A model generated the notes under the pieces. It searched no databases. It was given only the letters and a program-made list of their open reading frames with translations, and had not been told where the DNA came from. From assembly GCA_031271475.1 (NCBI GenBank), contig JAISVP010000161.1, forward strand, positions 1 to 11,243: a stretch of 11,243 nucleotides of DNA, read 5' to 3'. The stretch's first letter is position 1. Every line of letters begins with the position of its first letter. Origin of the DNA: Oscillospiraceae bacterium. Its GTDB lineage: Bacteria; Bacillota; Clostridia; Oscillospirales; Ruminococcaceae. The translations under genes were made by a program, and so were the position numbers. Shown here piece after piece: positions 1,643 to 10,873 of this stretch.

Positions 1643-1647
1643 CAGTT

Positions 1648-1756
1648 ATAGTAATTTTGAACCCGAACGGGCTAAGCCCGTCCTCATCGACGCACGCATT
1701 TGCGTGCGAGGTCTGGACTTTGCCCAGACCGTAGCCGTTAGAAACGGCTACAGTAA
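1648..1756 (+). repeat. Dispersed multi-hairpin repeat, family A, copy A1 (best-preserved copy)
   Basis: This copy has four consecutive inverted repeats. Hairpin 1 is ACGGGC-taa-GCCCGT (1667-1681). Hairpin 2 is CGCACGC-attt-GCGTGCG (1691-1708). Hairpin 3 is GGTCTGG/CCAGACC (1710-1730). Hairpin 4 is GTAGCCGTT-aga-AACGGCTAC (1731-1751), a perfect 9-bp stem. The left edge is ATAGTAATTTTGA and the right edge is CAGTAA, so each unit ends with a short echo of its own beginning. It fills most of the 184-bp gap between gltX and the ABC ATPase gene. No U-run follows any hairpin, so it is not a standard terminator. Confidence 0.93.
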
Positions 1757-3598: not shown

Positions 3599-3601
3599 GA
3601 T

Positions 3602-3695
3602 ACAGTCGTTTCTTACTGCTATGGTCTAGACCCCGCACGCATTTGCGTGCGCCGATGAGAACGGGCTTAGCCCGTTCGGGGTCGAAATTATACTG
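3602..3695 (-). repeat. Dispersed multi-hairpin repeat, family A, copy A2 (inverted)
   Basis: Read on the minus strand this copy starts near GTATAATTTCGAC and carries GAACGGGCTAAGCCCGTT (hairpin 1, perfect), GCACGCAAATGCGTGC (hairpin 2, perfect), GGTCTAGACC (hairpin 3 reduced to a loopless palindrome, losing both arms symmetrically) and a degraded hairpin 4 ending ACGACTGTA. It begins 3 nt after the permease stop and merges at its other end with family B copy B1. Confidence 0.9.
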
Positions 3696-3753
3696 TTTTA
3701 CTGTGTAAAACAGCAGTGTGTTTCGCAAGAAACGCACCGAACACGCAGTGTTC
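3693..3753 (+). repeat. Triple-hairpin repeat, family B, copy B1
   Basis: Three back-to-back hairpins are seen. The first is CTGTTTTAC-tgt-GTAAAACAG (3693-3713). The second is GTGTGTTTC-GCAA-GAAACGCAC (3716-3737), which has a GNRA-type loop. The third is GAACAC-gca-GTGTTC (3739-3753). Similarity to copy B2 continues into AGAGTATACT downstream. The last stem ends 32 nt before the ATG of the GldG-like gene, so the element would sit in its leader or in the operon's intercistronic RNA. Confidence 0.88.
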
Positions 3754-3785
3754 AAGAGTATACTATACAGAAAAGGCGGGTCAGT

Positions 3786-6956: not shown

Positions 6957-7015
6957 GTTTTACTGTGTAAAACAGGAGTGTGTTTCACAAGAAACGTACC
7001 GAATACGCAGTGTTT
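6957..7015 (+). repeat. Triple-hairpin repeat, family B, copy B2
   Basis: This copy has the same three-hairpin order as B1: GTTTTAC-tgt-GTAAAAC (6957-6973), GTGTGTTTC-ACAA-GAAACGTAC (6978-6999) and GAATAC-gca-GTGTTT (7001-7015). It differs from B1 by three stem changes, all C-to-T, each turning a G-C pair into a G-U pair in + strand RNA. A TATAAT follows at 7021-7026, matching TATACT at the equivalent place in B1, but no -35 is present at the right distance. The ATG of the next gene is 28 nt after the last stem. Confidence 0.88.
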
Positions 7016-7043
7016 GGGAGTATAATATTTGAATGGAGGTAAT

Positions 7044-7385: not shown

Positions 7386-7400
7386 GGTTTGGAAACTTCG

Positions 7401-7526
7401 CATAGCCCGTTCTTGATCGAAATTACTGCAGCCGTTTCTAACGTCTATGGTCTGGGCTTTGCCCGGACCTCGCACGCAAATGCGTGCAACGCTCGAAATT
7501 ACTGTATAAGAGTCTGTCTAAAAAAA
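7401..7526 (-). repeat. Dispersed multi-hairpin repeat, family A, copy A3 (inverted, rearranged)
   Basis: Read on the minus strand: an outer arm TTTTTTAGACAGACTCTTA (7507-7525), then ACAGTAATTTCGA. Hairpin 1 is missing here. Hairpin 2 GCACGCATTTGCGTGC (7472-7487) is perfect. Hairpin 3 (7449-7469) is a 9-bp stem, GGTCCGGGC against GCCCAGACC with one wobble-type pair. Hairpin 4 is degraded. A second unit then begins, CAGTAATTTCGATCAAGAAC plus part of hairpin 1, ending about 7401. The shared CAGTAATTTCGA junction shows that units can be joined in tandem. It lies 15 bp after the ABC terminator. Confidence 0.87.
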
Positions 7527-7550
7527 CTTTTATCAGCATACATATGTACT

Positions 7551-7650
7551 ATAGTAATTCCGCCCCCGAACGGGAGAAGCGAAGTCCTCATCGGCATACG
7601 TAAATGCGTGCGGGTCTGGCTTTTCCGCAGCCGTTGGAAACGGCTGATAA
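7551..7650 (+). repeat. Dispersed multi-hairpin repeat, family A, copy A4 (degenerate)
   Basis: It starts ATAGTAATTC and keeps the order of family A, but hairpins 1 to 3 are eroded (GAACGGGAGAAGCGAAGTCC in place of hairpin 1). Hairpin 4 is intact as CAGCCGTT-gga-AACGGCTG (7628-7646). It faces copy A3 head to head. A 9-bp inverted repeat, TTTATCAGC at 7530-7538 and GCTGATAAA at 7643-7651, brackets it and may mark element ends. Confidence 0.8.
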
Positions 7651-8949: not shown

Positions 8950-9430
8950 GATTGGAAAAATCGTTAATACTCACGGAATTAAGGGAGAAGTCAGGGTAAT
9001 GCCTTGGTGTGACAGTCCCGTACAGCTTGAGAGATTTGACATTTTTTATACAAAGAACGGTTCAGAAAAATTGGTGACGCAGTCTGTGAGAATAACCAAA
9101 GGAATGGGTATAATAAAGTTTAAAGGATATAATAATCCGGATGATGCCGAAAAATTGCGCGCACAGGTGCTGTATGTTCCGAAAGACAGTTTTGAGTTGG
9201 AAGACGGCGTTTTTTTTGTGCGGGATTTAATCGGGCTGAAAGTATATGACGCGGATACAGAGTTTTTTTACGGGGTAATCACGGATGTAATACCTACCGG
9301 ATCCAATGATGTATATACGGTAAAAAGTGAATTCAGGGAGTATTTGGTTCCGGGAATAGCAGACGTGGTAACGCAAACGGATATAAGTGAAGGGGTTATG
9401 AAAATCAGACCTCCGGAAGGTCTTTTTTAG
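8936..9430 (+). CDS. rimM: Ribosome maturation factor RimM
   Basis: RimM binds ribosomal protein S19 and helps mature the head of the 30S subunit. The 164 residues show the two expected domains: an N-terminal RimM barrel opening with ELIEIGKIVNTHGIKGEVRV, and a PRC-barrel domain starting near FFVRDLIGLKVYD. The end reads EYLVPGIADVV...KIRPPEGLF, matching the family's usual final PEGLL. The start is TTG inside the amidohydrolase gene, with GGAG at 8922-8925, 10 nt upstream; no ATG offers a full N-terminus. In many bacteria rimM is followed directly by trmD. Here a terminator built into the last codons and repeat A5 separate them. Confidence 0.96.
   Translation: MELIEIGKIVNTHGIKGEVRVMPWCDSPVQLERFDIFYTKNGSEKLVTQSVRITKGMGIIKFKGYNNPDDAEKLRAQVLYVPKDSFELEDGVFFVRDLIGLKVYDADTEFFYGVITDVIPTGSNDVYTVKSEFREYLVPGIADVVTQTDISEGVMKIRPPEGLF
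9407..9428 (+). terminator. Intrinsic terminator inside the rimM coding end
   Basis: AGACCT-CCGGA-AGGTCT followed by TTTTT forms a perfect 6-bp stem and a U-run. The stem lies wholly within rimM codons for Arg-Pro-Pro-Glu-Gly-Leu-Phe, and the TAG stop (9428-9430) begins in the U-run. It should end the promoter-7710 transcript. Confidence 0.82.
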
Positions 9431-9444
9431 ACAGGCTCTTAAGT

Positions 9445-9547
9445 ATAGTAATTTCGATCGAAAACGGACTAAGCCCGTCCTCATTGACGCACGCATTGCG
9501 TGGGGGTCTGGTTTTGCCGAGACCGTAGCCGTTAGAAACGACTGTAA
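9445..9547 (+). repeat. Dispersed multi-hairpin repeat, family A, copy A5
   Basis: It begins TATAGTAATTTCGA and keeps all four stems with damage: ACGGACTAAGCCCGT (one mismatch, 9464-9478), CACGC-att-GCGTG, GGTCT/AGACC, and GTAGCCGTT-aga-AACGACTGT with a mismatch. An outer arm TTTTTTAGACAGGCTCTTA (9423-9441) matches the arm of copy A3 at 18 of 19 positions and overlaps the rimM stop codon. It sits between rimM and trmD. Confidence 0.88.
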
Positions 9548-10600: not shown

Positions 10601-10873
10601 ATGTATTTTAAAGATTTAAAGGTGCAGAATTCAATAGGGTTACACGCAAGACCTGCGACATTCTTTATTCAGGAGGCAAATAAGTTTAAGTCAGCCATAT
10701 GGGTGGAAAAGGAAGATCGCCGTGTAAATGCAAAGAGTTTGCTTGGTGTGTTGTCTTTGGGTATCTTGGGCGGGACGCCGATAAAGATTCTTGCTGACGG
10801 TCCTGATGAACAGGCAGCGGTTGAGGCTTTGTATGATTTGGTGGACAGTAGTTTTCAAGATGAAAAGGTATAG
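10601..10873 (+). CDS. ptsH: HPr phosphocarrier protein
   Basis: HPr passes phosphate from enzyme I to the sugar-specific EIIA proteins of the phosphotransferase system in the cytoplasm. The 90 residues include the active-site motif IGLHARPATFF with phosphorylatable H15 and R17, and the regulatory serine S46 in NAKSLLGVLSLGI. In Gram-positive bacteria HPr kinase/phosphorylase phosphorylates this serine for catabolite control with CcpA. Having His15 rules out a Crh-type paralogue, which lacks it. AAGGGAG lies 7 nt before the ATG. The gene has its own promoter and a terminator 25 bp after its stop, so it is transcribed alone, whereas ptsH often forms an operon with ptsI. It could also be a second HPr copy in the genome. 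Confidence 0.95.
   Translation: MYFKDLKVQNSIGLHARPATFFIQEANKFKSAIWVEKEDRRVNAKSLLGVLSLGILGGTPIKILADGPDEQAAVEALYDLVDSSFQDEKV

Follow-up and report, generated by a model that had tools for sequence, protein, structure and literature searches.

A repeat of about 105 bp, here called family A, is real, abundant and lineage-specific in the genome studied, and we regard it as probably a non-autonomous, MITE-like element that depends on a TA-duplicating transposase acting in trans. Our starting point was the window, by which we mean the whole stretch of 11,243 nt that was analyzed and which is the entire contig C108 of a 204-contig, 1.05-Mb genome assembly that is 55.9% complete. The data show that family A has many copies, constant boundaries and TA at its ends, that some filled sites have uninterrupted paralogous counterparts, and that copies nest with other repeats and are duplicated locally in tandem. 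Its consensus, derived from 123 near-full copies with a mean identity to the consensus of 0.825, is 105 nt long and consists of an unpaired tail, TAYAGTAATTTCGA, followed by four back-to-back hairpins (hp1 to hp4) and the terminal CTRTA.

The sequence-only reading had reported five copies in the window, and all five are confirmed, far above chance, by the covariance model R1 (built from 29 copies), with matches at 1647-1752 (+), 3601-3695 (-), 7427-7506 (-), 7550-7648 (+) and 9444-9546 (+) and E-values from 6e-33 to 7e-15. The fixed order given there, namely an edge followed by hp1, hp2, hp3 and hp4, was also correct and, as seen in our alignments, is common to the family. A1 (1647..1750, +; 121.7 bits, delimited by the model match and the alignment) is a full-length unit, with the left end TATAGTAATTTTGA at 1647-1660, an hp1 core at 1667-1681, hp2 at 1691-1708, hp3 at 1710-1730 and hp4 at 1731-1751, all on the + strand. 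A5 (9444..9546, +; 106.5 bits) is likewise full-length and A4 (7550..7648, +; 68.4 bits) is degenerate. In A2 (3601..3695, -; 75.5 bits), the left end is fused to a second multi-hairpin repeat, family B, and hp3 is shortened to GGTCTAGACC, which is loopless as proposed; the stem proposed for hp3 of A3, by comparison, contains one C.A mismatch. The extent of A3 also had to be redrawn, as what had been taken for one copy at 7401-7526 is a unit without hp1 at 7427..7506 (-; 61 bits), whose sequence shows an inverted hp3 loop (AAA), in tandem with a truncated second unit at about 7400..7430 (-) that retains the left end (match at 7417-7430) and part of hp1 (blastn match at 7400-7427). The remaining stretch, 7507-7525, is part of another repeat, with an inverted copy at 9423-9441. 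This inverted pair, TAAGAGyCTGTCTAAAAAA, thus lies beside A3 and A5, and it resembles the ends of a MITE that surrounds an A copy elsewhere (C125:662).

The hexamer CAGTAA, previously read as the right edge, follows hp4 in only two of the five window copies (A1 and A3), where it is the beginning of a next unit or what is left of one, and it does not stand out as conserved when 40 copies are aligned; on the right, the unit ends in CTRTA. At A1, CAGTAA (1751..1756, +) stands outside the unit and, judging from this alignment and the list of junctions, is most simply a trace of the following unit's left end. The proposal that copies abut gene 3' ends stands for A1, A2 and A5 but not for the family at large. 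When the 109 of 147 copies with at most 30 nt of ORF overlap were considered, crude ORF calls gave 36 left ends facing a gene 3' end and 61 facing a 5' end, the corresponding figures for right ends being 50 and 39. A bias in orientation relative to neighbouring genes was considered (18 in the same direction, 32 in the opposite one; p=0.065) and is not claimed.

Pfam analysis of 10 window proteins, with the HPr-like ORF at 10601 and the contig ends left out, identified gltX, an ABC transporter pair with ABC_transp_aux and DUF4340 companions, a zinc-ribbon protein, an amidohydrolase, rimM, trmD and one protein without a match. None of the 10 carries a transposase domain, in agreement with the earlier statement that no transposase is encoded near the copies. 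Among the 120 relatives listed from 7998 candidates scored, the closest GltX outside the window is 66% identical and comes from a Ruminococcus sp. MAG, with the names Ruminococcus sp., Oscillospiraceae and Clostridiales found among these relatives.

A genome-wide search for further copies, which had been suggested as a test, found many. With 150 of 978 candidates scored, the model yielded 147 matches at E<=0.01 across the 1.05 Mb, 123 of which are 94-114 nt long, although there are truncated and doubtful ones among the weakest. In the same genome, blastn with A1 gave 47 matches (40 of 143 candidates scored), and the left end TAYAGTAATTTCGA, when up to one mismatch was allowed, was found 118 times, versus twice for the reversed pattern. 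Scaling 147 by genome completeness gives about 260 copies, a purely arithmetic figure that assumes evenness. Outside this genome, family A was detected neither by blastn in 119 other genomes of relatives nor by the model at E<=1e-4 in 294 other genomes of the order (a search with stricter filters and 13 candidates scored per genome listed). The exact left end was matched seven times in six of 293 genomes of relatives, as compared with 28 matches for the reversed control, which is chance level. Exact family A patterns gave no match in genome_contigs (where the own genome may be excluded) or in viral_contigs, and one family A unit gave none against plasmids and phages.

The boundaries of family A are sharply defined. 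In the alignment of 40 copies with their flanks, conservation begins and stops abruptly at TA on both sides, with TA forming the first two bases in 108 of the 147 matches and the last two in 107. The ends read TAYAG...CTRTA, with the right end formed by the outer arm of hp4 and reading TAYAGCCGTTTCTA on the opposite strand, and in the consensus they make up an imperfect short inverted repeat (10/14, or 8/12 without TA). The possibility of coevolving terminal bases was rejected, as sites 3 and 103 showed no covariation between the ends (p=0.24). For the 79 copies with TA at both ends, the flanks share no further base beyond TA in 50 cases, one in 22 and two or three in 7, and no target duplication longer than TA was seen in the flanks of the 147 matches. 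TA duplication is typical of IS630/Tc1-type DDE enzymes, or of other TA-duplicating DDE enzymes such as those of the IS427 group.

To identify empty sites, the flanks of 143 copies were joined by one TA and searched against the own genome, leaving out those cases in which the flank was another A unit or the truncated copy itself (C17, C100, C172, C151, C98, C187, C167, C60, C123, C33:5992, C108:7427, C180, C112 and C164); three informative sites were obtained. The clearest is C71:2349-2454, which matches the uninterrupted C71:659-764 at 99/106 positions with no gap, the empty site reading CACCCCT-TA-TTAATT and the filled site CACCCCT-TG[element]TA-TTAATT, such that the left dinucleotide of the filled site is TG and not TA. 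The second copy, C125:662-756, lies inside a MITE, and its junction, CAG-TA-ATGC, is that of intact family C copies and of the uninterrupted relative in C179, although the latter is only 70% identical with three gaps. The third, C63:2198-2303, lies in a family D repeat, with uninterrupted counterparts in C21 (92/108) and C33 (87/108), neither with a gap, and further paralogues in C19 and C84 (79-80%, one gap each). In both the C21 and the C33 sequence, however, AA occupies the position of the TA in the join and a TA lies one base off, so that this site is evidence for an insertion in which nothing was lost but not for the exact target. Family D itself, a repeat with CCGTCTGTTTCGG and a AATAAACTC...GAGTTTATT hairpin, was noted at C21:7334-7499, C33:4449-4598, C63:2304-2416 and C84:524-677.

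Empty sites, which had been called for in close strains, were found for three copies as paralogous counterparts in the same genome, and not as allelic or strain counterparts. Of the two outcomes named beforehand as refuting, few further copies and a lack of empty sites, neither was obtained. That paralogous sites exist without the unit speaks in favour of mobile DNA and against regulatory parts that are fixed in place. Together with the 147 matches and the lack of a transposase among the 10 window proteins, they point to non-autonomous mobility. Family A shares with MITEs a small size, non-coding sequence and many copies (147 matches, mostly of about 105 nt), and the TA duplication of IS630-type elements is seen at two paralogous sites, namely C71, with TG on the left of the filled site, and C125, with its 70% identical relative. 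That TA is the target duplication in general is what we infer from these data.

No autonomous partner for family A was found in the own genome, 55.9% complete, or at 29 DDE_3 loci of relatives. The own genome holds one broken DDE_3 (IS630-type) fragment (C203:89-660), located at a contig end and scoring below the family cut-off. Of the 100 left ends listed from the 118, 17 are solo, i.e., without a model match, and in the 170 nt after each of these 17 no longer element with both ends was detected. DDE_3 matches occur in 24 of 247 family genomes (the own genome included), at 37 places outside the own genome; around 29 of these 37, no A-like pair of ends flanks the DDE_3 match, with single matches to an A end (at most two mismatches) occurring in nine of the 29 loci. 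The IS transposase with matching ends that had been suggested as a target of the search was thus not found at these 17 solo left ends and 29 DDE_3 loci. With almost half of the genome absent, going from mobility to a particular enzyme is a matter of inference.

The earlier suggestion of an element mobilised in trans had left open whether it is MITE-like or REP-like, and it is the MITE-like form that fits best. Family A units could be REP/BIME-type palindromes, moved via single-stranded hairpins by a RAYT or other Y1 (HUH) transposase, given their small hairpins, high copy number, tandem clusters and an hp4 that begins with GTAG in many copies. We nonetheless consider this very unlikely. The GTAG is variable, with G or A at site 84 and T or C at site 85, and Y1_Tnp had no match in the 55.9%-complete own genome, whereas the same search was positive in five of 14 control genomes. 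Moreover, REP/RAYT insertion proceeds without target duplication, such that TA on both sides is not expected, yet filled sites carry TA (once TG) on both sides and the uninterrupted C71 and family C sequences a single TA.

The pairing of the hairpins is backed by covariation. Over the 123 copies used for pair counts (of 147 matches), 69% of cells are paired in hp1, 92% in hp2, 88% in hp3 and 90% in hp4. Compensatory change is clearest at sites 68/78, with CG in 41 copies and GC in 38, as compared with mismatched CC in 12 and GG in 11 (p=4e-8), and is also seen at 88/100 (p=3e-4) and 85/103 (p=0.004). The loops of hp2 and hp3 occur in both orientations (62 versus 19, with 42 of 123 uncalled, and 54 versus 39, with 30 of 123 uncalled, respectively) and flip independently of one another (p=1, 55 copies called for both), while that of hp4 is nearly fixed (93 versus 3, with 27 of 123 uncalled). 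Linkage between variants decays rapidly, with a mean r2 of 0.37 at 1-3 nt, 0.035 at 4-15 nt, 0.021 at 16-40 nt and 0.012 beyond 40 nt; for base-paired polymorphic sites the mean is 0.15 (n=4), as compared with 0.02-0.035 for other sites 4-40 nt apart. Family A copies thus look like mosaics or carriers of recurrent changes. Among 25 dispersed pairs at >=0.92 identity, 11 have hp3 loops of opposite orientation, whereas the two members of a tandem pair agree wherever both are callable. A coupling of hp3 loop inversion to transposition was, however, dropped, as the ordinary polymorphic sites 17, 18, 36, 68 and 78 are equally unlinked at >=0.90 identity, with sites 3, 11, 43, 44 and 85 being less so.

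Pairing in hp2 to hp4, the compensatory change at 68/78 and the higher covariation of paired sites could be taken to reflect a conserved structured RNA, or a regulatory or terminator element, kept for host-gene function. When variants are nearly unlinked, however, conversion, arm-templated correction or recurrent mutation could also keep hairpin arms matched, so that matched arms alone are no proof of selection on RNA. Copies are, moreover, found in both orientations and in all types of intergenic region, they decay, are truncated and are interrupted by other MITEs, there is no match in the relatives searched, and no Rfam match at the gathering score was obtained in the window. A host function is accordingly an explanation to which we attach little probability.

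Eight head-to-tail pairs have a mean identity of 0.90, as compared with 0.718 for all 7503 pairs, and none of 20,000 random draws was as high, although a single array contributes three of these pairs, which hence are not independent. This high identity indicates that arrays grow by local duplication. Short forms, about 60 nt in length, have lost hp2 and parts of hp1 and hp3 while retaining the two ends; in addition, left-left palindromes occur three times and hp4-only palindromes twice (C164:1444 and C121:1481), the latter being the only such cases, by eye, among 13 hp4 matches outside A, the rest being split by family C, decayed A or terminator-like. No hp2 or hp3 match was found outside family A in the DNA searched, which was drawn from around copies. 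The occurrence of short forms and palindromes with ends, and of no free hp2 or hp3, points to the ends as mattering for spread, though deletion could also yield the short forms. That the repeat spread chiefly by recombination and tandem duplication, with no transposase, would suit the locally duplicated pairs and the variants nearly unlinked across 105 bp, as expected of frequent conversion between copies, but is highly improbable given the abrupt end of conservation at the TA on either side in the 40 aligned copies and given that paralogous sites differ by a unit with one TA at C71 and C125.

Other repeats accompany family A. Family B, which has TATACT/AGTATA-type ends and 13 matches in the genome, is present twice in the window (3691..3766 and 6957..7028, both -) and was noted elsewhere at C158:9431, C164:2854, C154:3040, C191:1719 and C33:4639; it adjoins A in at least four places (A2 of the window, C164, C154 and C191). 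Family C, a MITE of about 170 bp with ends GAGCCTGTTCAATATC and a duplicated TTA, which we take to be IS5/IS1031-like, has inserted repeatedly into A, within its hp4 loop, and once into B (C192:782, C57:2012, C121:1622, C19:2742, C157:6862 and C33:4638).

In terms of mechanism, the MITE-like element would be recognised at its TAYAG...CTRTA ends by a transposase supplied in trans, which would insert it at a TA dinucleotide and leave TA on each side. This enzyme is presumably of the IS630/Tc1-like class or of another TA-duplicating DDE type, and the hairpins probably serve mobility or survival and not host regulation. One may further speculate, although we consider it unlikely, that the outer arm of hp4 is a hairpin transposon end, that the enzyme recognises a folded or cruciform end together with a linear one, and that families A and B, which are both multi-hairpin repeats with TA-type ends, are two clients of one enzyme. 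Such recognition would explain why the ends are asymmetric and why the multi-hairpin body is conserved, and the idea draws on the almost fixed loop orientation of hp4, unlike that of hp3.

Among known systems, family A can be compared, by description, with several small interspersed repeats. The Correia elements of Neisseria begin with TATAG and duplicate TA. RUP of Streptococcus pneumoniae is 107 bp long, has ends like those of IS630-Spn1 and was hypothesised to move in trans (PMC3049150), and on this description is the nearest to family A in size and style. Both resemble family A as small interspersed repeats of similar size and high copy number, and differ from it in that family A has four successive hairpins, a short terminal inverted repeat and no partner IS found. 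BOX of S. pneumoniae comprises boxA, a variable number of tandem boxB and boxC (PMC3049150); it is a modular repeat like family A, in which, however, whole units are in tandem and hp2 and hp3 are single modules. The REP/REPIN sequences with RAYT are small, extragenic palindromes of high copy number (PMC2817692), as is family A, which differs in its four different hairpins in fixed order, TA on both sides and no Y1 match in the 55.9%-complete genome. A review of MITEs covers Correia, ERIC and further families, some of which exceed 100 copies (PMC10969869). In the literature searched, at the level of titles and listings, no description of such a multi-hairpin intergenic repeat in a Clostridia group was found.

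Family A is thus best read as a variant of the MITE-like kind whose ends are asymmetric and in part made of a hairpin. With it, a Clostridia group gains a small mobile element that is abundant and restricted to one lineage. Such repeats may break assemblies, as several copies lie at contig ends (e.g., C71:1-64, C101:5645-5709 and C167:1-83). The paralogous empty sites offer a direct handle on target choice, and the asymmetry of the ends makes it a testable question which transposase accepts a hairpin end.
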